DNA from: Bacillota bacterium | GTDB lineage: Bacteria; Bacillota; Limnochordia; DTU087 | Reading direction: 5' to 3' | Assembly (NCBI GenBank): GCA_012839845.1 | Contig: DUMM01000059.1 | Coordinates: 1-52,316 of the forward strand | DNA: 52,316 nt | Position numbers and translations under genes: made by a program | Notes under the pieces: model-generated | Told to the model about the DNA's origin: nothing | The model's database searches: none | Seen by the model: the letters and a program-made list of their open reading frames with translations, nothing else | In this document: piece after piece, positions 4,822 to 28,765 of the stretch | How the letters are laid out: every line of letters starts with the position of its first letter | Numbering within the stretch: the stretch's first letter is position 1

Positions 4822-8800
<3,979 letters not shown>

Positions 8801-9754
8801 ATGCGTTTAGGTGACCTGTACCAACTGGCCGTCAATTTGGGGATAGACGCCGATCCCCGAGGAAGAGCAGCCGTTGAGAGAAATCTGCAAAGGGTCAGGG
8901 ACCAATTTGAGAAGCTCGATGCCGATGAAAAGGAGGAATTCGATCAGGAGAAGCTGACTAACCCTTACGGCGATACCCGCATCTCCTACGGTGACCCTGA
9001 TCTAGAAATCAACCGGCTGATCGCCGGCGTGGATGTGGATGTTGCCGATCTTATGCTGGCTGACCACCTGCGCCGAAACGGCAACCCCATTGAGCTTGTA
9101 GTTTCCCACCATCCGGCGGGGCTTGCCTCCATTCATTTCCCTGACGTTATGTACATGCAAGCGGACATGATGCAGACAGTGGGTGTACCCATTAACGTGG
9201 CTGAAGGCATCCTGGGAGAGCGCATCGATGAAGTGCGCCGCCGCATACTGCCCAGCAACCATTACCGGGTAGCGGACGCCGCGAGGCTGCTGGATATGCC
9301 CCTGATGTCCATCCATACGCCAGCGGACAACAACGTACAGAAGTTGGTTCAAGCCCACATTGACTCTCGCGGCCCGGAGACTCTGCAGGATCTCATCAAG
9401 GTCCTGAAGGAGATCCCGGAATATAAAGAAGCCGCCAGGCGGAATACCGGACCGACTATCCTAGTAGGCAAGAAGGAAAACCGCTGCGGCAAGATCGCAG
9501 TGGTGATGACCGGCGGTACCGGCGGGCCCAAGGCGGACATCGAGGAGTTTGTCAAGGCTGGAGTCGGTACCGTGGTAGAGATGCACATGAGCGATGAAAA
9601 AGTGGAGGAAGCCAAAAAGCACCATCTCAACGTAGTGATCGCCGGCCATATGGCCAGTGACTCCATCGGTATGAACATCATTCTCGATGAGTTTGAAAAG
9701 CGGGGCGTAGAGGTTTTGACCTTCTCAGGACTTATCCGGCACCGCAGGTTTTAG
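8801..9754 (+). CDS. NIF3/DUF34-family metal-binding protein
   Basis: Cytoplasmic protein of 317 residues in the NIF3 (YbgI-like) dinuclear-metal family, whose biochemical role is debated (a GTP cyclohydrolase I-like fold and metal insertion have been proposed). Likely ligands are visible: VVSHHPAG near residue 104, HTPADNN near 182, and the C-terminal AGHMASDS. The first 60 residues are an acidic/charged helical extension not typical of the short bacterial members. AAAGGAG lies 10 bases before the ATG. The gene is single and ends in a strong terminator. Family call is confident; a function is not assigned. Confidence 0.8.
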   Translation: MRLGDLYQLAVNLGIDADPRGRAAVERNLQRVRDQFEKLDADEKEEFDQEKLTNPYGDTRISYGDPDLEINRLIAGVDVDVADLMLADHLRRNGNPIELVVSHHPAGLASIHFPDVMYMQADMMQTVGVPINVAEGILGERIDEVRRRILPSNHYRVADAARLLDMPLMSIHTPADNNVQKLVQAHIDSRGPETLQDLIKVLKEIPEYKEAARRNTGPTILVGKKENRCGKIAVVMTGGTGGPKADIEEFVKAGVGTVVEMHMSDEKVEEAKKHHLNVVIAGHMASDSIGMNIILDEFEKRGVEVLTFSGLIRHRRF

Positions 9755-14906: not shown

Positions 14907-16682
14907 TCACCCCTGTTCCCCGTACTGTCCCTGAATAGCTGCCAGCAAGGCCTTGGCCGCCAGCTCTGGTCCTGCTACTTCAAACCCTTTGATGCCCAGC
15001 TGGGTACGTATCTGGCCTACCTTGACACCCTGACTCATCATAGTCTCCAGATACTTGCGGGCCAGCTTGTGGTGCTGCTCCCGTTTCTGAGGAGCACCGA
15101 AAGGATTAGCGAAATACGTGTAGACAAGTCCCTCCTCGCTGGTGGTCCCTTTGGACATCCTGGCACCCTGGCTGTAGACCTCCAGTGCTTCCTCTACGTC
15201 TGTGAAGAACTGCAGGTACGGCTGCTGCCTGGTGACCCGTTCATAGTTGTTGGCATACAGGAACATATCCACGGGCCAACCTTGTACCACTTTCCCGTAA
15301 GGGGTAATGGGGATAACAATCCTGGCATTGGTCTTATGGGGATTCATGAAGATGCTCCGTTCTACCTCGGCATAGGCATAACCGGGCTGCAGGTCATCGA
15401 GGCGCACGAAGGCTCCGATCTCAGTGCCTACTCCAATTACCTGTCCATTTCTCACCTGCAGCGACCCCATGTCATCGAAGACCACCGTTAGGTCCCGCAG
15501 GTGTTCATCGGCTAATATCCGCAGGGCCTCCAGGGACTCCGATTTCCCCGCCCCGCTGTCCCCGACGAGAATGACATTGGCACAGTGCCCGTCCCGCAGC
15601 ACAATGCTGGCCATGGCACCGTGAATCGGCAAGTTGCCCCTTTCGATTTGCAGCAAATTGTGGAGAGTCAGGGCCATCTTCTTCAGGTATCCGAAGTAGT
15701 CCACCCGTTCCGAGCGGGCAATGACCCCCAGGATCAGCCCATTGGGCTTATCTTCATAGTAAATAGTGTCATCGGAACCCAGTATTTCAGGATCAATTCC
15801 AAAGACCAGAATGGCATCCGGTTTTCTGCCTTCGATTTCCTCCGCTTCCGCCATTTCAAAGAGGTTGGAAAGGCTGGTACCGAGGCTGAGGTACCGCTTG
15901 TGGAAATAGATGAACATCAAGAGCTCGCCCACCTTAGCCGGGTAACAGACCCAATCCTCTGGGTCGAAGGCAGCCCTCTCCAAAGGATTATACTCTACAG
16001 GCTTGAACATTCCGGAACGGTAATTTCGCTTCGGATAATACACCAAAGGCGGCACTATAACCAAAAGCTGAATGAAGGGGATATCTCTGAGGCCGGCATA
16101 CGCTTCACCTGGCACCTGCCACTCTATGCGGGAGGTGAGAATCCCCACCCCAGCACCTGCCGGCAGCTGACGGTAAACCATGGGCACTCTGCCGGTTAAG
16201 TTGGCGCAAATATTTCGATATGCCTCCAGGACCAGATCCTTCATGGTCTCATTGACCTGAATAAAGTGCTGGTGCCGGGTATAGACATCGGTCCTGGGGC
16301 CGTAGGCATCTTCATAGATCAGATAGCGTTCATGGCCCCGCCAAAAGTCATAGAACTCTTCAACGAAATCGTATAACTCCAGGCGCTGGTCAGCCACCGG
16401 CGCCAGCATCGGCAAAGCCTCTATCACTTCATCGAGGGACTGCATGGAAAGGAACATGAAAAATTTGGTTAGGAGTTCTATATCATAAGGACAGTTGCCG
16501 TTTTCTTGATTCTCCCGGCGAAAATGCTTGATAGCCCCCAGGTGAGGCGAATCACGGCGGATCAGCCGAGTGACAAACCCCTTCAGCACCCTGTGGAATA
16601 TATCGCTTTTGAAAAGGTCGGCAGGAACCCGGCAAGGCGTTCGACCGATTATAATCCGGTTCTCATCAACTTCGGACCGCAT
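14907..16682 (-). CDS. HPr kinase/PEP carboxykinase-fold P-loop protein of unknown function
   Basis: Protein of 591 residues with no signal peptide or membrane helix, so cytoplasmic. The C-terminal half carries the HPrK/PEPCK hallmarks: PIHGAMAS near residue 353, a P-loop GDSGAGKSES at 374-383, the metal-binding VVFDDMG near 401, and NARIVIPITPYG near 452. The first 350 residues are unlike HPr kinase or ATP-PEPCK, and total length exceeds both (about 310 and 540). Start at 16682 is set by AGGAGGT upstream; an ATG 37 codons earlier has no site. A role as a protein or small-molecule kinase is inference. It stands between the ttcA terminator and the structure at 14644. Confidence 0.6.
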   Translation of the reverse strand: MRSEVDENRIIIGRTPCRVPADLFKSDIFHRVLKGFVTRLIRRDSPHLGAIKHFRRENQENGNCPYDIELLTKFFMFLSMQSLDEVIEALPMLAPVADQRLELYDFVEEFYDFWRGHERYLIYEDAYGPRTDVYTRHQHFIQVNETMKDLVLEAYRNICANLTGRVPMVYRQLPAGAGVGILTSRIEWQVPGEAYAGLRDIPFIQLLVIVPPLVYYPKRNYRSGMFKPVEYNPLERAAFDPEDWVCYPAKVGELLMFIYFHKRYLSLGTSLSNLFEMAEAEEIEGRKPDAILVFGIDPEILGSDDTIYYEDKPNGLILGVIARSERVDYFGYLKKMALTLHNLLQIERGNLPIHGAMASIVLRDGHCANVILVGDSGAGKSESLEALRILADEHLRDLTVVFDDMGSLQVRNGQVIGVGTEIGAFVRLDDLQPGYAYAEVERSIFMNPHKTNARIVIPITPYGKVVQGWPVDMFLYANNYERVTRQQPYLQFFTDVEEALEVYSQGARMSKGTTSEEGLVYTYFANPFGAPQKREQHHKLARKYLETMMSQGVKVGQIRTQLGIKGFEVAGPELAAKALLAAIQGQYGEQG

Positions 16683-16730
16683 ACTTGTTGTGACCTCCTC
16701 GCTCGACACACAGTATACAAGGGGCCTGAG

Positions 16731-16774: not shown

Positions 16775-16849
16775 AATCAACAGCTCGCCCCAAAGGTTTG
16801 CTTCATCTTAGCACTATCGCCAAGGAAAGTCAAACCTAATCTTTGGGAA

Positions 16850-17659
16850 TCATTCGCTGTGCACATGATCATCCCCTGCAGCTGGACGCATGGTCCGCTG
16901 ATGTTTTTGCCTCATCTCCTCCCGGCTTGCGGCCGGCGGCCAAAGATCTCCCAATGCATCCCGCCGCATTGCGGCTGCCAGATTAGTATATACAAAGGGG
17001 TTCTCCCTAGTGAGGCTCTCAATCAGCTCCTTCACTTTGTGCCTGTAAGTCTTTCCTTGGAACGGACAGGGGCTGGGCATCGGTGCATACTGCAGCGTCT
17101 GGACAAATTCACTGATCTCTGCCTCTCGCAGATACACCAGGGGGCGGATCACCGTAATGTTGGTCCTGTCCAGATAAGATTTCGGCAGGAATGTCTGTAT
17201 TTTCCCGGAGTACAGCTGACTCATAAGGAACGTCTCCACCGCATCGTCATTGTGATGGGCGTAAGCCACCTTGTTGTACCCCTGCCCAGCGGCAATCTCA
17301 TTAACCACCGCCCTGCGGAAGTAGGCGCAGCTGGCGCACGGGTTGTTTCGGCTTCTGCGCAGGGCGATCTCGGCTATCTGAGTCTTTTGGACAGTTAAAG
17401 GCACATCCAGCTGCCGGCAAAACTCCTCAAGGTGAGGCACATCCGACAGCTGCTCAAATCCCAGATCCACGTGGACTGCTCCCAGATCGAAGCGGAAAGG
17501 AGCGCTGTTCTGAAGTACTTTCAGTGCGTAAAGCAAGAAGGAGCTGTCTTTGCCGCCGGAAAAGCCCACCAGCACCCGGTCTCCCTCTTCCAAAAGATCA
17601 AATTCAACAACTGCCCGCCATACTTTTCTTGCATAATCTCTAGGCAATGCCAGCTTCAT
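16850..17659 (-). CDS. ttcA: TtcA-family tRNA 2-thiocytidine synthetase
   Basis: Cytoplasmic ATP-PPi-loop protein of 269 residues. TtcA adenylates C32 of certain tRNAs and inserts sulfur with a 4Fe-4S cluster. The PP-loop SGGKDSS lies near residue 36; cluster cysteines are in NPCASCAYFRR near 131 and in SPCPFQGKTYR near 220. YAHHNDDAVETF is the family's ATP-site helix. The ATG at 17659 (GGGGG upstream) gives a start at MKLALPRD; an in-frame start 33 codons earlier would overlap gmhA and lacks a site. It lies 62 bases after gmhA and may be cotranscribed. Related CTU1/TtuA members thiolate other positions, so target base is not certain. Confidence 0.82.
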   Translation of the reverse strand: MKLALPRDYARKVWRAVVEFDLLEEGDRVLVGFSGGKDSSFLLYALKVLQNSAPFRFDLGAVHVDLGFEQLSDVPHLEEFCRQLDVPLTVQKTQIAEIALRRSRNNPCASCAYFRRAVVNEIAAGQGYNKVAYAHHNDDAVETFLMSQLYSGKIQTFLPKSYLDRTNITVIRPLVYLREAEISEFVQTLQYAPMPSPCPFQGKTYRHKVKELIESLTRENPFVYTNLAAAMRRDALGDLWPPAASREEMRQKHQRTMRPAAGDDHVHSE

Positions 17660-17721: not shown

Positions 17722-18366
17722 CTAGACTGCAAAGAACCGTTCCTCCAGCATGGCGCACAGCGCATGGTAAACCGGTAAATGTGCTTCCTGCACCAAATGG
17801 GTCTCGGTATACGGCACATTCAGCAACACATCAGCGTAATCCTTCAGGACTCCTCCCCCCTGCCCAGTGAAAGCAACGACTTTCATATCCCGGGCTTTAG
17901 CCACGATGGCAGCCGCCACTACGTTCCGGGAATTTCCAGAAGTTGAAAGAGCCCAGAGAACATCACCTGCCTGTCCCAGAGCGTTGACCTGCTGGGCAAA
18001 GATCATGTCGCCGGAAATATCATTGGTCACCGCTGTACCAACTGAAGTGTGGGAGACCAGGGAAACAGCCGGCATACCCTGCTGAAGCAGGTGGGCAATT
18101 TTCTTCCCCTCTTCACCTCCCACTGCTGCCAGACGCTCCTTAAGGGCTTCCTCCACCGGCCGCCGCTTCAAGAAACCTTTCAACAGTTCCCCCGCGATGT
18201 GCTCAGCATCAGCGGCACTGCCGCCGTTGCCGCAAAGAAGGAGCTTCTTCCCCGATGCGTAAGCCGCTTCCGTGACAAGGTATGCAGACCAAACAGCTTC
18301 TGCCAGGGATTGCAGATCCTCTCTGCGGGTCAACAGGTTTTCCAGGTGGATCCGGGGATCCGCCAT
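17722..18366 (-). CDS. gmhA: Phosphoheptose isomerase (sedoheptulose-7-phosphate isomerase)
   Basis: Cytoplasmic SIS-domain protein of 214 residues. GmhA makes D-glycero-D-manno-heptose 7-phosphate, the precursor of LPS core and S-layer-glycan heptoses. Motifs are LCGNGGSAADAEH near residue 45, ALSTSGNSRNV near 139, and the C-terminal QEAHLPVYHALC with the catalytic histidine. A segment of about 25 residues between the first two motifs (PVEEALKERL onward) makes it longer than E. coli GmhA (about 190). No hldE, gmhB or heptosyltransferase is nearby. DiaA and other SIS proteins are alternatives, but the motifs fit GmhA better. Confidence 0.82.
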   Translation of the reverse strand: MADPRIHLENLLTRREDLQSLAEAVWSAYLVTEAAYASGKKLLLCGNGGSAADAEHIAGELLKGFLKRRPVEEALKERLAAVGGEEGKKIAHLLQQGMPAVSLVSHTSVGTAVTNDISGDMIFAQQVNALGQAGDVLWALSTSGNSRNVVAAAIVAKARDMKVVAFTGQGGGVLKDYADVLLNVPYTETHLVQEAHLPVYHALCAMLEERFFAV

Positions 18367-20941: not shown

Positions 20942-21868
20942 TTAGGCTCCCGGTATCAAGGAGAGGCCGGATACCCGGGCATCCCGCATTACCTCTACGT
21001 AAAACTCTGTACCGACGGGCAGCACCACATCTTTACCCTTGACAAACCACGCTCCAGCGAGGCCTATGGGACTGCTGAGGATCATTGCTCCGACCATTCC
21101 GGCGCCGGCTGCCAGCTCGAGAGACCTGTTCTTCTCAGTGGCCTTCTCCTCCATAACTAGGGTAACTGGCGTTCCATCGATGGCGGGGAGAGTGCCGAAA
21201 TCTACGACTATGCGCCCATCCTGGCCAAGACGCTTGGCATTGCTGACCTCCCGCACCTTACCGACACCTTCTGTACCTGCTGGGATGACCAGGCGATCTT
21301 TGATGATGACGTCTTCCAGTACCCGGTACCTAACGGGATCCCCCACCTTATTCTTGGAGCTGTCCAGTTCACTAAGCAGCTTAACCTTGACCAAGGTCTC
21401 CTTAGGGACAGTTACTACATCCACATTGAGCTTATCTGTTGCCCACACCATCATCAAAAGCTCATTGGTACGGGCAGCCAATGAACCCGACTGAATCGCG
21501 CCAAACATCGCCGATTCCAGCCGCTCCAACCGCCCGTACAGAGGCTGCCCCACGCTTACTTCCTGATACACCATCCATTCGATGGCGTTCAGCTTCAGAT
21601 TCAAGGAGCTCTCTGTACCCAGCCCACTGGAAAGGTAACTGCTGAGGTTGTCCACCCGAACTAGAATCGGACCCGTCTTGGTTTCACCAAAAACATCCCT
21701 TTCCAACCTTTCCAGACGCTCAATCAACGCTCCGCCCTGTGCTTGTCCGTACAGCATAATCTCCAGCTGTCTGATGTTTTCCAGCGGGGTGTTGGCTTGT
21801 GCCGACACAGGGACGGCAAGAATTACCAGCAAGCAAACCACTAGATTAAGGGCTACTATCTTCTTCAC
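20942..21868 (-). CDS. Secreted repeat protein of unknown function, partner of SLH-barrel gene
   Basis: Exported protein of 308 residues. A signal peptide ends near VPVSAQA. Residues about 30-130 contain a repeated pattern in which RLERLERDVFG and RLERLESAMFG are the clearest copies, each preceded by a Met/Leu-Tyr segment (MLYGQAQGG, MVYQEVSVG) and followed by Gly-x-L-x-x-R. The C-terminal half is beta-rich with an FG-like loop GKVREVSNAKRLGQDG, and a Gly/Ala hydrophobic hairpin near 255. The start is GTG at 21868 with AAGGAG 9 bases upstream. It follows the SLH-barrel gene by 49 bases and is probably in the same operon. I do not recognise the family; an outer-membrane or wall-associated partner is inference. 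Confidence 0.6.
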   Translation of the reverse strand: MKKIVALNLVVCLLVILAVPVSAQANTPLENIRQLEIMLYGQAQGGALIERLERLERDVFGETKTGPILVRVDNLSSYLSSGLGTESSLNLKLNAIEWMVYQEVSVGQPLYGRLERLESAMFGAIQSGSLAARTNELLMMVWATDKLNVDVVTVPKETLVKVKLLSELDSSKNKVGDPVRYRVLEDVIIKDRLVIPAGTEGVGKVREVSNAKRLGQDGRIVVDFGTLPAIDGTPVTLVMEEKATEKNRSLELAAGAGMVGAMILSSPIGLAGAWFVKGKDVVLPVGTEFYVEVMRDARVSGLSLIPGA

Positions 21869-21917
21869 GGACCGACGCTCCTTCCCAAAGCAAGACGGAT
21901 AATCAGCTTTCTCCATC

Positions 21918-23384
21918 CTAGAACTTGATCGACAGCTCTGCAGTAGCGATATTCTCAGTATCTTCTGCATCAGTGAAATCGATCATTTTATACCCCAGAA
22001 CCAATGCTGCCTCCTTCCGGTAGTTGTATCCCAAACTGAAGCTGGTGGTTTTCTGGTTGTCATCGGAATCCTCCAAGGCTACCCCTGCCTGCAGCACTGA
22101 CTCAGAATCCCACGGCGCTTCATGGGCTATGTCCGCACTGGCTCCCCGTGTAAGCAGCCGTCCTGAACCAGGCTGTTGGTCATAGATGAAGCCTAAACTG
22201 ACGCTGCCTCTCGGAATACTAACTCCTACATCTACCCGGCTCCGCCTTGTACTGCTGGCTTCTTCGCTTTCCCCTGCCAGCTGGTCGATATCTACATATT
22301 CATAGTTGGCACGGAGCACCAAGCCCTCACTGAAGCCGTACTGCAAGCCGATAGAGGTGACAGTTTCCGGCTCGCTGTTTTCACCCACAAGCGTTTGCTT
22401 TGCCCTGCCGGTACTCAACATCACATCTCCGTACTGAAGTGATACCTCGTATCCAGTCGATTCTTTTCCCTCAGTTCTGCCCGTGAGCAAGGGATCGAAT
22501 TGCGGCCTCACGGTTCTGTAGCTGGCGCCTACCTCAACATCCCCGAGCCTCATTTCAGCTCCGACCCTCATGGAGCTGGCATCTTCAAAATACGAAGGAT
22601 TGGCAGCGTATTCGCCCAGCACCCTCACCCCAGGGGTAACCTGCAGTCTTCCTTCTAGAGACGTAACAGCCCTGGCTTCCCTGACTTCCCCACCGGTCAC
22701 GGGATCATATCTGTCATCGGTTTCTCCCAACAAGGTACTAATGCTGACGCCGAGCTCCAAGTCACCGCTACGCAGCACAGTACTGTCGGAGCTGACTATA
22801 CTCCGCCGGCTGCTGAGAATGAAAGGATCTTCATCCTCATCCCGGCCAAGGAGGGACCACCAATCCCGCCTGGTCTCATATGGTTTGAGCAGTAGATCGT
22901 AATCGGCAAGGCTGTATCCGGGCTTGATGACCCCTAGGGCTTTGAGTTCGCTGTTAAAGCCCTCCACAAGACGTACAATAAGTTCCAAATGCTCATCAGT
23001 CAGCTTACCTTTTCCTATATCCGACTGCTTGGCTGCTGCAAATAATTCTTGTAGGATCTGCCTTTCGGAACCGCTGACTATGCTGCCGCTGAGGTCCTGA
23101 CCGCTGCCGCCCATGTCGTTCAAGCGAGTCAGCATCTTGGCAATCAGCATTGCCATCTCGTACCGCGTAATGGATGTCTTGCTGTCAAAGAGAACTTCCG
23201 ACTCCAGCACCAGCGGCGTCCGTGCCAGGCTTTCTACCGCCTCATAGCTCCAATGCCCCAAAGGGATGTCTATACTCTGCAGCTCTTCACCATATGCGGG
23301 CGCGCTTAAGCTGACCAGGCCTAAACCAGCAGCCACGACCAGCCACAGAACCACTAGTCTCCGCACATCCAACGCCGCCCGCAT
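21918..23384 (-). CDS. SLH-domain outer-membrane barrel protein
   Basis: Exported protein of 488 residues. A signal peptide ends near APAYG-EE. One SLH domain follows (about residues 37-87, with PLGHWSYEAVESLA and the TRYEMAMLIAKML helix), then a helical linker and a long run of alternating hydrophobic residues from about 190 to the end, closing with ATAELSIKF. An aromatic C-terminal residue and strand pattern fit an outer-membrane beta-barrel anchored to wall polymer through SLH, as in OmpM-type proteins of diderm Bacillota. ATG at 23384 follows GGGAGGG. It precedes the secreted repeat protein by 49 bases. Confidence 0.75.
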   Translation of the reverse strand: MRAALDVRRLVVLWLVVAAGLGLVSLSAPAYGEELQSIDIPLGHWSYEAVESLARTPLVLESEVLFDSKTSITRYEMAMLIAKMLTRLNDMGGSGQDLSGSIVSGSERQILQELFAAAKQSDIGKGKLTDEHLELIVRLVEGFNSELKALGVIKPGYSLADYDLLLKPYETRRDWWSLLGRDEDEDPFILSSRRSIVSSDSTVLRSGDLELGVSISTLLGETDDRYDPVTGGEVREARAVTSLEGRLQVTPGVRVLGEYAANPSYFEDASSMRVGAEMRLGDVEVGASYRTVRPQFDPLLTGRTEGKESTGYEVSLQYGDVMLSTGRAKQTLVGENSEPETVTSIGLQYGFSEGLVLRANYEYVDIDQLAGESEEASSTRRSRVDVGVSIPRGSVSLGFIYDQQPGSGRLLTRGASADIAHEAPWDSESVLQAGVALEDSDDNQKTTSFSLGYNYRKEAALVLGYKMIDFTDAEDTENIATAELSIKF

Positions 23385-23582
23385 CGGATCCCTCCCAAAA
23401 CAACGACACCTGATGGATACCAACAGTACATTCCTGCTTTCCAGCACACATCCCCATTACTATATGATACCCAGTCATACTTCTCTACTTTTGCCAGAAA
23501 ACCCTCTTAGTTCTCGCCCAGACCTTTATTGCCAATTTATACCCAACCTAAACGCACCAATGCATAAGACCTTATCCCCATG

Positions 23583-24117: not shown

Positions 24118-27111
24118 CTAGAACTCAAACTTGAGTCCAGCGTTCAGCTCGTTCACAGTGTAGTTGTAGTCCTTCTCGTACGCCTCGACATCGACATACC
24201 GATAGCCGAGTACCAGGTCAGCTACGTCATCGATTACCGGATAGGTCAGCTTGACCTCGGCAATCGTATCCTCCTTGGCGTACTTCCCGTCTGCGTCCTC
24301 TGGACCGCCGGTCCGGAGCTGGTAGCTGGCTAACAGGTTAGCAGCGCCAAAATCTCTCTCCGCACTGACCCGATAGGTCATGAGCGGCTCCTGATACTCC
24401 CGACCTTGCTTGCCTTTGAGTTCAGACGTCCTGTTCTCGTAACCGATGAACCCAGTGATAGTAGTATCCCAGATCTCAACAGGATACTCAGCGCTCAATG
24501 CTACTGTGGATTCAGCTACTGCCTTTCCACCATTCTTCTTCGCGACCCAATCACCTACGTCATCGAAATCGTACCCGTCACCTATAGCGTTGGTTGTGTA
24601 CTCATAGCTGGCGCCCAACTTCAGATTTCCGAACGTCGGCTTGTATGCCACACCAAACAAGAAGCTGCTGTTATCCTTGATGTCTTCGTGTTCAATGTTG
24701 GCGTATTTACCGGTGACTGTCAACGGCATTCCGAAGAGATCGCTCTTCGTCGCTTTCAACATCATCGCGGTAAGATCCTTTTCTGGATTGCCTTCCTTGG
24801 TCACATAGGTCACATACCCACCGCCGACCTTGAGACCAAGCAGGTCGAAATTGTCAGCACTCAAGGATAGGCTGGACTTGTAGGCGTCAACATCATCATC
24901 GGCTAGGGAGAATTCATATCCTTCATCTACTGCCTTGTAGGTGACATCCCACTGCGGCCTGAGATCTTCTTCGTCTTCAGCCGGCTCTGGACCATATGCC
25001 TTGCCGACGCTGATCATGTACGCCGACTTCTCATTCTTCGCGCTTGCAAAGGCAACAGAGTAGTCTGCGAAGTTGAGGTCGCCCTTCAGACCGATGCTGT
25101 ATGCCCAGTCATCCTCCCAGACCAGAGGTGTGACCGGAGGTGTACCAGCAGTATCATCGAAAGTGACCCTGCCGTATTGCAGGTCGACGATGAAGGCATC
25201 GCTCAACTTGTACTCTGCGTTCACGAGAGCAGCATAATCTGGCTCGACTCCGGTTCCATGCTTACCTTTCAAGTACCACGGCCGGAACAGCTGGATCTCC
25301 GTGTCGAGGTTGCCCACAACGACGTTAGCCGCAACAACCTCGCCAGCATCGAACCCGTCCCGATCCTGGTCAATCATGAACTCGTTGTACCGCTTTACGA
25401 TATCTTCCTCGTCCCGCTCGCCTACGTACAAGGAGCGCAGAGCTTTATTGGTCTCTAGTTCTAGTGCGATTCCTGTCAAGTCAAGCGTAGACTTCTCGTC
25501 GTCTTTATCTCCTAGGATGTTTGCTGTACTTGCCAGGCTGGCCTTCACGCTGACGCCGTCAGCAGGAGTTGCCTCAAGATCGAGGGTAAACTTCTGCTTC
25601 AGGGTTGACTCGGGAGTATACCACTTGTCGTCATCATCATCGTCTTGATCCCGCGGATCTTTATAGACATGCCACTTCGGATCATCCGGATCACTCGTGT
25701 CTCCTTCATCCGACTCCGGATCACTCTTGTATCCATCGCCAGCAACTACGCCGACATTCGCGAACACCGTCTCAGTCGAGCCGGAAAGCTTCACTTTCTC
25801 GTGCTCTTCCTTGAAGGCGGCGAATTCAGCAGCGGTAGCCTGCTGCTCCTGATCCACGATCCGCAGCAAAGCAGATGTAATAGTCTGTTCGGTCTCCAGA
25901 GCGGTTATCTGAGTTGCCAGGTCCTCGTCAGCAGCCTGCAGAGCAGCTATGTCGGCAGCGTTAGCAGCAATGGCTTCGTCCAGCTGACGGACTTCCCACT
26001 CAAGTAGATCGAGGCGTGCTCCATGGTCAGCCACGATATTCTCCAGATCAGCCACTCTTACACCGAGGCTCTCCAGCTCCGCACCGAACTCCTCGCTCAG
26101 AGCGGCGATCTCGCTCTCCACCGCAGCGGTTGTGCTCTCCAGCAAGGCAGCAACAGCGTTGACATCGCCTTCCAGTGCAGCAATGGTCAGAGCCAGATTG
26201 CGGATCTCCTGGTTGGCCTCCGCGATAGCAGCCTTGTTGGCAGCCGCAGCGGCGCCGGCATCCTCAGCGGCCTTCAGTGCAGCCAGAGCCTGCTCGGTAG
26301 CAGTGTCGGCAGCCTTCTGAGCTGCGTCAGCCTTGTTGTTTGCCATATCTGCCTTGAGCTTAACTACATCAAGAACAGCATCGTTGACTTCTACCGTGAA
26401 TGCCAGCTCATCCAGGAGTTTTCTGGCAGCTGCCACTTCGGCCTTCAATGCAGCAATCTCCTCAGCATTCAGGTCAACGCTGGTCTGTGCGTTGGCTACA
26501 GCGCTGAGCAGACCTGCCAGATCTTTTGCGCTGATCTCGGGCTCGGCCTCGATGATCTTCTCTACAACTTTCGGCTCCAACTTGGCTACGTTCTCAGCTA
26601 CTGCGTCGGCTGCTACTTTCGCGATCACAGCCTTAGCCTCATCGGTGAGCTCAAATGGCATTACCTTTTCAATAGGCTGCTCTACCACTACCCGCTCAAC
26701 GATTTCCGGCGCAGGCAGCTCGATCTTTGCGACTTCATCTTGAATGGCTGCGTTAAGTTCAGCCTTGATCTTGGCCACCTCGTCTACCAGAGCCTGGGCG
26801 ACCTTGGCATAGATCTCGTCCTCCATGCCCTTAACCTCAGCGCCTACCTCAGCGGCAATGAGAGTATCCAAGCGGCCCAGTATTCTGGCAAACACCATGG
26901 CCATCTCGTAACGGGTGAAGGTTCTGTCTCCCTTGAAGGTACCATCCGGATAGCCAATGACCAGCCCTGCTGCAGCCAGCTCGGCGACGCTGTCGTATGC
27001 CCAATGATCTTTGGGAACATCAGCAAAGGGCATATTGGCTGCAAATGCTGGCATGATCATTGTAGCTACCATGATTGTCGCTACTAATAAAGCAAACACC
27101 TTTTTATTCAT
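24118..27111 (-). CDS. OmpM-type SLH-coiled-coil-beta-barrel outer-membrane tether
   Basis: Exported protein of 997 residues. Signal peptide 1-25. SLH domain about 27-78 (FADVPKDHWAYDSVAELA, then TFTRYEMAMVFARIL). Residues about 85-440 are Ala/Glu/Leu-rich heptads with few helix breakers except a Pro-rich stretch near 131-150. A beta-barrel follows to the end, closing with ELNAGLKFEF. An acidic segment at 463-496 (DPESDEGDTSDPDDP and a run of six Asp) lies at the barrel entry. In OmpM proteins SLH binds modified peptidoglycan and the barrel sits in the outer membrane; the coiled coil here is unusually long. RBS AAAGGGGG upstream; a long leader suggests regulated or strong expression. Confidence 0.85.
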   Translation of the reverse strand: MNKKVFALLVATIMVATMIMPAFAANMPFADVPKDHWAYDSVAELAAAGLVIGYPDGTFKGDRTFTRYEMAMVFARILGRLDTLIAAEVGAEVKGMEDEIYAKVAQALVDEVAKIKAELNAAIQDEVAKIELPAPEIVERVVVEQPIEKVMPFELTDEAKAVIAKVAADAVAENVAKLEPKVVEKIIEAEPEISAKDLAGLLSAVANAQTSVDLNAEEIAALKAEVAAARKLLDELAFTVEVNDAVLDVVKLKADMANNKADAAQKAADTATEQALAALKAAEDAGAAAAANKAAIAEANQEIRNLALTIAALEGDVNAVAALLESTTAAVESEIAALSEEFGAELESLGVRVADLENIVADHGARLDLLEWEVRQLDEAIAANAADIAALQAADEDLATQITALETEQTITSALLRIVDQEQQATAAEFAAFKEEHEKVKLSGSTETVFANVGVVAGDGYKSDPESDEGDTSDPDDPKWHVYKDPRDQDDDDDDKWYTPESTLKQKFTLDLEATPADGVSVKASLASTANILGDKDDEKSTLDLTGIALELETNKALRSLYVGERDEEDIVKRYNEFMIDQDRDGFDAGEVVAANVVVGNLDTEIQLFRPWYLKGKHGTGVEPDYAALVNAEYKLSDAFIVDLQYGRVTFDDTAGTPPVTPLVWEDDWAYSIGLKGDLNFADYSVAFASAKNEKSAYMISVGKAYGPEPAEDEEDLRPQWDVTYKAVDEGYEFSLADDDVDAYKSSLSLSADNFDLLGLKVGGGYVTYVTKEGNPEKDLTAMMLKATKSDLFGMPLTVTGKYANIEHEDIKDNSSFLFGVAYKPTFGNLKLGASYEYTTNAIGDGYDFDDVGDWVAKKNGGKAVAESTVALSAEYPVEIWDTTITGFIGYENRTSELKGKQGREYQEPLMTYRVSAERDFGAANLLASYQLRTGGPEDADGKYAKEDTIAEVKLTYPVIDDVADLVLGYRYVDVEAYEKDYNYTVNELNAGLKFEF

Positions 27112-27632: not shown

Positions 27633-28622
27633 CTAAGGTCTCGGATCGGTTCTATTCAAGAAATAAGAAGTCAAGAGGCCAGCGGGACGGCCATCGGTCA
27701 TGTTGGCACCCAGTCTCAAGCTTCCTTCATCCGGTTCCGCCGGCGCTTGCAGCTCCAAAGCTTCCGGGTCTGCTGCCGGCAGCTCCTGCTTTTCACTGCC
27801 CAGCTTTTCAAACAGAACCGAGACTTCTACGGGGGAATAAGTATCAGACCCCACCGCACCTGATCCGATAGTCTCCCCAAGAGGTAAGGCAGCTGCCTCC
27901 GGTATTGCTGAGCGTACATTGGCCGCACCATTGGCCTGAAAGCTGCCTACCGCATCACTCAGGGCTGCAAGTGGTGTAACTCCAAGGGTCGAAACCTCTA
28001 CAATGAGCTCGCTCGACAGACTAAACCCATTTTTCCCCCGAGAGCCTGCCGTCAGCCGGCCGCATATCTTACCAGCACCCAGCTGCGCTAGAACCATGGC
28101 AGCCCTGTTTTGAGACAGCTGTGAACCCATCGTTCCATCCACTACAGCTAAAGAAAAAAAGCCCTTATCCACGTTACTTGCGGCAATTCCCAAGGCATCT
28201 AGTTCATCGGCTAATTCCTCGGCCAACCTCCCAAGGGATCTAAAAGCAGCCTCTGAGGCCGTGCGGGTTTGGGCGACAATTTCTGACGAGAGCGTGACCG
28301 TGGGATCTGCTCTCCTTTTCGCGAGCATCTTCCACATCAGAGCATCAGCAGATACACCGCTGGAAACGCCCTTCTGACCTGTAGGGATTAGTAAATCCCC
28401 GATGAGAAGCGCTGCCTCGTACCGGGTGAGAGGGTAGACCTCGGCCAGCTCCTGGGCGCTGCTGTAGTCCTTCAAAAGCCCTGCATCGGCTAAGACAGCC
28501 AGCTCAGCATAAGCCCGGTGGCCCTTAAGTAACAGATCAAATGATCCGGCAAGTGCCGATGCTGCCCCAGTTATCAACAAGAGAAAGCATAAAAATATGA
28601 TGCCTGCAGCCCGGCGGTTCAT
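27633..28622 (-). CDS. Secreted protein with degenerate SLH-like domain
   Basis: Exported protein of 329 residues. A signal peptide with hydrophobic core AGIIFLCFLLLITGAASALAG is followed by one SLH-like unit (GHRAYAELAVLADAGLL and YPLTRYEAALLIGDLL). The Trp and Asp-Val-x-x of a standard SLH are missing. The rest is low in aromatic residues and has no barrel signature; a central region with an LGRLAEELADELDALGI helix is visible. ATG at 28622 follows AGGGGG. Weak similarity in layout to the linker region of the SLH-barrel gene at 21918 suggests a shared ancestor. Function unknown. Confidence 0.6.
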   Translation of the reverse strand: MNRRAAGIIFLCFLLLITGAASALAGSFDLLLKGHRAYAELAVLADAGLLKDYSSAQELAEVYPLTRYEAALLIGDLLIPTGQKGVSSGVSADALMWKMLAKRRADPTVTLSSEIVAQTRTASEAAFRSLGRLAEELADELDALGIAASNVDKGFFSLAVVDGTMGSQLSQNRAAMVLAQLGAGKICGRLTAGSRGKNGFSLSSELIVEVSTLGVTPLAALSDAVGSFQANGAANVRSAIPEAAALPLGETIGSGAVGSDTYSPVEVSVLFEKLGSEKQELPAADPEALELQAPAEPDEGSLRLGANMTDGRPAGLLTSYFLNRTDPRP

Positions 28623-28765
28623 TGGATCACTACCCCCTGAACTTCCTGATTGCGCTGCTCCTTCTTCTCTACTTCTTCGGAATGACACAGGATAATCCCT
28701 ATCAGCCGCGGCTTGCAACTTCCGGCAAGGGATAAGCTTTCTACCAGCAGGTGAGCACGGTAAAG

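Follow-up and report, generated by a model that had tools for sequence, protein, structure and literature searches.

Central metabolism has a junction at PEP, pyruvate and oxaloacetate, and the enzymes annotated at this point are what metabolic models use to predict growth. In the known phosphoenolpyruvate carboxykinases (PEPCKs), oxaloacetate binds at a metal and is decarboxylated to an enolate under a closing lid, and a phosphoryl group is transferred (PMC8100219, section 10); as phosphoryl donors, the portion of PMC8100219 consulted names ATP and GTP, and beyond these only unrelated PPi-dependent enzymes. Here we describe a gene in a 52,316-nucleotide stretch of bacterial DNA (the window), part of a 2.06-Mb genome, whose product, P0001, is a member of a separate, uncharacterised and widespread branch of the PEPCK superfamily. 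The gene and its likely translation signal are:

14907 to 16682, minus strand: coding sequence of the PEPCK-like protein, 591 amino acids; an open frame with homologues in many genomes
16694 to 16698, minus strand: GGAGG, probably the ribosome binding site, 11 bases upstream of the ATG at 16682

The frame consists of 591 codons and a stop. It holds HGAMAS, GDSGAGKSES, FDDMG and NARIVIPITPYG in that order, and the motif series listed by a first-pass annotation is thus borne out within a single minus-strand frame; that annotation gave no strand. Although the open frame extends upstream as far as a TTG at 16793, translation more probably begins with the ATG at 16682, because the GGAGG lies just ahead of it and relatives from the same taxonomic family start at the same position.

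No Pfam or NCBIfam model covers P0001, in keeping with the earlier remark that its length and N-terminus match neither HPr kinase nor PEPCK. In Pfam no model passes (best E 0.034), and NCBIfam returned nothing at E 0.01. In the proposed HMM comparison with the HPr kinase and PEPCK families, PF01293 (PEPCK_ATP) reached E 0.26 and 10.4 bits, below its curated cut-off of 26.5, and neither PF07475 (Hpr_kinase_C) nor PF00821 (GTP-PEPCK) matched at E 1. PF16260 (DUF4914) likewise gave no match at E 1; PF07475 and PF16260 also have no match in the rest of the genome, and the only weak PF00821 match there lies on a different contig, not in the PEPCK-like gene. Among 57 family members, weak single-sequence matches are seen to the NCBIfam PEPCK model NF006821 in 47 and to PF01293 in 36; Hpr_kinase_C matches, weaker than those to PF01293, occur in 10 (best 0.019), and PF16260 matches at E 0.1 in only seven (best 0.0055). 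Searches of solved structures gave nothing useful with the single sequence and, with a profile, one PEPCK row at E 0.33, ranked under unrelated rows. The family was absent from the literature found by a search limited to titles and abstract openings, and the parts consulted of PMC8100219, PMC9138534, PMC7911632 and PMC5414155 do not describe it.

With hhalign, the family profile matched an alignment of ATP-PEPCKs, E. coli Pck among them, at E 6.1e-7 (residues 263-563 with 140-444); as controls, the reversed profile gave E 0.54, and 20 profiles with shuffled columns lay between 0.061 and 0.63. An AlphaFold model of P0001 (pLDDT 85.8, pTM 0.86) was used for fold searches: PEPCK made up all of the best 50 Foldseek matches listed, and VIA-align superposed model residues 187-591 on residues 2-460 of T. 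thermophilus PEPCK (2pc9) with Z 25.7, 3.1 Å over 356 residues and 16% identity. No other family, HPr kinase included, appeared among the best 50 Foldseek and VIA-align matches listed, an absence that in itself excludes nothing. The placement in the HPr kinase/PEPCK superfamily is therefore upheld by profile alignment and fold, but only its PEPCK side stands: the family belongs to the PEPCK superfamily as a divergent branch and is not one of HPr kinases. The following parts of the protein can be delimited:

16134 to 16682, minus strand: residues 1-183, added helical N-terminal domain; from predicted models, with no PEPCK profile match
15699 to 16133, minus strand: residues 184-328, shortened PEPCK N-domain; within the VIA-align range 187-591
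14910 to 15698, minus strand: residues 329-591, PEPCK-like nucleotide-binding domain; from hhalign and fold
15678 to 15698, minus strand: YFGYLKK, residues 329-335, aligned by hhalign with E. coli YGGEMKK 207-213; Y, G, K and K in 57/57 members
15621 to 15623, minus strand: H354, aligned by hhalign with the metal ligand His232; 57/57
15540 to 15563, minus strand: P-loop GDSGAGKS, residues 374-381; from motif, hhalign and conservation
15465 to 15476, minus strand: DDMG, residues 403-406, putative counterpart of E. coli D268/D269; from motif order, not hhalign
15321 to 15329, minus strand: NAR, residues 452-454, with R454 aligned by hhalign with Arg333; 57/57
15129 to 15152, minus strand: KGTTSEEG, residues 511-518, aligned by hhalign near PEPCK AGTERG

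In the predicted model the two-domain fold of PEPCK is present over residues 187-591. The N-terminus had been described as 350 unassigned residues; the suggested structure prediction of that half resolves it into a PEPCK N-domain at about 184-328 and a separate helical domain at 1-183, so that only some 183 residues are left without assignment.

Correspondence with PEPCK extends to individual active-site residues. hhalign pairs Y329, G331, K334 and K335 with E. coli Y207, G209, K212 and K213, and H354, K380, S381 and R454 with H232, K254, T255 and R333; all eight, together with D403, D404 and R222, are identical in 57/57 members. Thus, for the metal ligands Lys213, His232 and Asp269, K335 and H354 are aligned and invariant and D404 is placed by motif order only, and P-loop Lys254 and Thr255 and the residue Arg333 are matched by K380, S381 and R454, aligned and identical throughout. 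R222 is a candidate for E. coli Arg65, invariant in all 57 members, but the alignment stops short of it. For the P-loop and DDMG, part of this invariance comes from the way members were collected, since both served as search patterns in a scan of GTDB species genomes; A1, a member recruited by whole-protein search, agrees on both. KGTTSEEG falls near AGTERG, which we take to be the lid of E. coli Pck. The listed residues of E. coli Pck are important for its function, and E. coli PEPCK mutant structures are, by title, available for Arg65Gln, Lys213Ser, Lys254Ser, Asp269Asn, Y207F and K212I. The family also has motifs of its own, such as GTEIGAFVRLDDL and YANN.

The added N-terminal domain gave no match to the PEPCK profile (E 0.15 for residues 1-183). 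Modelled separately, residues 1-186 form a helical bundle (pLDDT 81.5), for which the best Foldseek E was 0.98; the best VIA-align matches were globins, the DosC globin domain (Z 5.2) and the RsbR N-domain (Z 5.0), at 4.2-4.5 Å, and such globin-like or RsbR-like matches at Z of about 5 are, for predicted helical models, within chance. C17, Y111, W114, R115, R119, F140, Y155, R156 and Q172 are invariant in a 56-member alignment of the domain, which is therefore under strong constraint.

Homologues with 44-92% identity are present in 17 of 100 related genomes (the gene's own genome included; two are cut by contig ends), and in 15 of 299 genomes sampled across the phylum; each set contains one further fragment, the same in both. 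The motif set is hence more than a chance occurrence. The GTDB scan yielded at least 579 confirmed family loci among at least 595 candidates, of which 80 loci were kept for study. The family is found mainly in Bacillota (including Limnochordia, Moorella, Clostridium, Caloramator and Youngiibacter) and Nitrospirota, with other carriers in Thermosulfurimonas, Fusobacterium, Armatimonadetes and elsewhere; some labels of metagenome-assembled genomes, such as DPANN and Woesearchaeota, may reflect misbinning. In eight members the P-loop reads GDT instead of GDS, and all eight fall within one clade of nine (FastTree support 1.0). Among 72,556 plasmid records a single plasmid, from Limosilactobacillus fermentum, has a family member, a 42% relative annotated as 'phosphoenolpyruvate carboxykinase'. 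This gene (L114, positions 7701-9410) lies on a mobilizable plasmid and is the most divergent sequence of the family tree.

The gene is mostly solitary: a close same-strand neighbour precedes it in 18 of 80 loci and follows it in 16 of 80, which is what a housekeeping enzyme would show. Two genes precede it here:

16853 to 17659, minus strand: TtcA-like PP-loop ATPase gene
17725 to 18366, minus strand: SIS-domain (GmhA/DiaA-like) gene

Both recur ahead of the gene within its own taxonomic family, the PP-loop gene in seven loci and the SIS gene in five. The neighbour survey proposed earlier therefore did find recurring genes, but in that family only; other lineages share neither, and the Clostridium neighbours seem to reflect synteny within the genus. 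Hence no pathway can be inferred, and an assignment of function from neighbours was dropped. Elsewhere in the window, all on the minus strand, 4825-8358 encodes a pyruvate:ferredoxin oxidoreductase (1178 aa) and thus a pyruvate metabolism of the anaerobic type, and a porin-like beta-barrel match (21921-23447) and a 997-aa protein with an SLH domain (24121-27111) suggest a diderm envelope in a Bacillota-type genome. Two long frames, 20945-21970 and 27636-28718, have no Pfam match at E 0.001.

The comparison of gene content covered, as routes between PEP and oxaloacetate, the two PEPCKs and PEP carboxylase, and also HPr kinase and its substrate HPr (PF00381). In the gene's own genome the only ATP-PEPCK match is the sub-threshold one of the gene itself, and none of the other four families was found. 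PF01293 exceeds its cut-off in 16 of 46 carriers (one of them, G369, by a partial match of 42 bits) and PF00821 is present in two; 28 have neither PEPCK, and 27 are without ATP-PEPCK, GTP-PEPCK and PEP carboxylase (PF00311) alike. Within the class, ATP-PEPCK is found in 0/14 GDSG-type carriers versus 19/34 non-carriers (one, G014, at only 30 bits), and in 3/3 GDTG-type carriers. Counting either PEPCK, the contrast is 0/10 versus 17/23 by genus (Fisher p 9e-5) and 0/4 versus 8/11 by lineage (p 0.03). Across the phylum sample, PF01293 occurs in 7/15 carriers and 120/284 non-carriers; there is thus no exclusion of PEPCK at this scale, and the idea of phylum-wide mutual exclusion was rejected. Replacement of PEPCK in place in one genome (G052) was also rejected, as its locus has no site in common with seven related PEPCK loci. 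Moorella, Caloramator and Youngiibacter have both the family gene and ATP-PEPCK; PF01293 does not exceed its cut-off in the seven Clostridium genomes tested (those of loci L074, L080, L089, L102, L110, L112 and L113) or in Fusobacterium mortiferum.

On the strength of the profile match, the fold match, the residues identical in 57/57 members, the absence of the usual PEPCKs and PEP carboxylase from its own genome and from 27 of 46 carriers, the contrast within the class and the solitary gene, we propose the following for the reaction and the way it runs, for phosphoryl donor binding and for the N-terminal domain. The likeliest role is that of a divergent PEPCK converting oxaloacetate to PEP or back, a candidate activity to which, judging from sequence and predicted structure, we would give about an even chance. 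Oxaloacetate (or PEP and CO2) would bind at a metal held by Lys335, His354 and Asp404, and the phosphoryl donor would be bound by the P-loop GDSGAGKS; the lid KGTTxExG would close, decarboxylation would give the enolate, and phosphoryl transfer would turn oxaloacetate into PEP, or the reverse. The N-terminal helical domain could serve as a regulatory or assembly module. Because the C-terminal end of PEPCK is unmatched, no one phosphoryl donor is singled out. Several observations count against a divergent PEPCK: a known type of PEPCK accompanies the family gene in 18 of 46 carriers, the phylum shows no exclusion, all three GDTG-type carriers of the class have ATP-PEPCK, the counterparts of Arg65 and Asp268/269 are putative, the P-loop and DDMG owe some of their invariance to the search patterns, and the C-terminal end and adenine site of PEPCK appear to have no clear counterpart.

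A less probable explanation that still deserves real weight is a small-molecule kinase or carboxykinase that has the PEPCK fold and acts on an acid other than oxaloacetate or PEP. The strong divergence from PEPCK, at 16% identity in the structural alignment, and the motifs of the family's own would suit such an enzyme, as would the 18 carriers with a PEPCK and the member on a Lactobacillaceae plasmid, lactobacilli being, to our knowledge, not known for gluconeogenesis. However, those residues around oxaloacetate in PEPCK that can be placed are invariant, and in many carriers the three families searched supply no other enzyme between PEP and oxaloacetate.

The first-pass annotation had inferred a kinase, or a regulator resembling one, whose target it could not name. 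An HPr-kinase-like protein kinase/phosphorylase with a protein target would have the superfamily P-loop in common with P0001 and could draw on the weak Hpr_kinase_C matches in 10 of 57 members; we nonetheless consider it improbable. P0001 and its genome have no PF07475 match, and HPr is missing not only there but from 16/17 class carriers and 28/46 carriers overall. The protein also possesses a PEPCK-type N-domain and the YxGxxKK and His residues, which, as far as we know, HPr kinase lacks, along with the lid. Membership of the HPr kinase family was rejected on profile and gene content, and the annotation's regulator is probably the wrong reading, given the missing HPr and the invariance, beyond the P-loop, of residues specific to PEPCK. 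It is very unlikely that the protein is a sensor or regulator whose PEPCK fold has lost activity, as the added domain with its weak globin-like and RsbR-like match might suggest, as every catalytic residue that can be placed is invariant and a dead enzyme would not need that.

Returning to a divergent PEPCK, a bolder and decidedly tentative extension is that the family is a third PEPCK class, unnamed in Pfam and NCBIfam, with a regulatory N-terminal domain of its own (perhaps a haem-free, globin-like one) and a phosphoryl donor perhaps different from both ATP and GTP; among the families searched, it would be the sole PEP-oxaloacetate candidate in over half of the carriers studied. A widespread family that has the active site of PEPCK and escapes the standard models would fill gaps that anaerobic Bacillota and Nitrospirota seem to have.

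Other divergent relatives of PEPCK came to light. DUF4914 (PF16260; 612 aa, also in Thermotoga maritima; loci L115-L118, with genes from 1501 onwards) has RRRDPD, YPGPSAKK, HAST, GASGGGKS, TDDM and NPRV in PEPCK order and aligns by hhalign with ATP-PEPCK over its full length (E 3.6e-6) and also with the P0001 family (E 1.2e-6); from these sequence comparisons it looks like another family of the PEPCK superfamily. It is present in 30 of the 299 phylum genomes and in 0/15 carriers of the P0001 family. One further DUF4914 match (L119; G130:C1, about 1076688-1078554) looks like a decayed gene, because it contains a dozen stop codons. Frames of 553-621 aa in four genomes (G262:C29, G307:C36, G309:C10, G267:C6) match most of PF01293 at E 1e-18 to 1e-22, with scores far under those of normal ATP-PEPCKs, and are possibly a further divergent PEPCK branch.

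The closest known system is ATP-PEPCK (PF01293; E. coli Pck, T. thermophilus 2pc9), which has the same fold across model residues 187-591 and with which the family shares counterparts of Y207, G209, K212, K213, H232, K254, T255 and R333. It differs from ATP-PEPCK in its roughly 183 extra N-terminal residues, its shorter N-domain, its longer stretch between the P-loop and the DD motif and its sub-cut-off profile score (10.4 versus 26.5 bits); the alignment ends at about residue 471 of the 540 in E. coli Pck, and the model appears to offer no clear counterpart of the C-terminal end and adenine site. GTP-PEPCK (PF00821) has the same fold at a lower Z, up to 22.5. HPr kinase/phosphorylase (PF07475) is likewise a P-loop kinase of the superfamily, but P0001 has no PF07475 match and its genome no HPr. 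DUF4914 is PEPCK-like as well, but differs in its N-terminal half and has RRRDPD at the position of PEPCK's GRSPKD. Together with DUF4914, the family described here would add branches to a superfamily usually given as ATP-PEPCK, GTP-PEPCK and HPr kinase.
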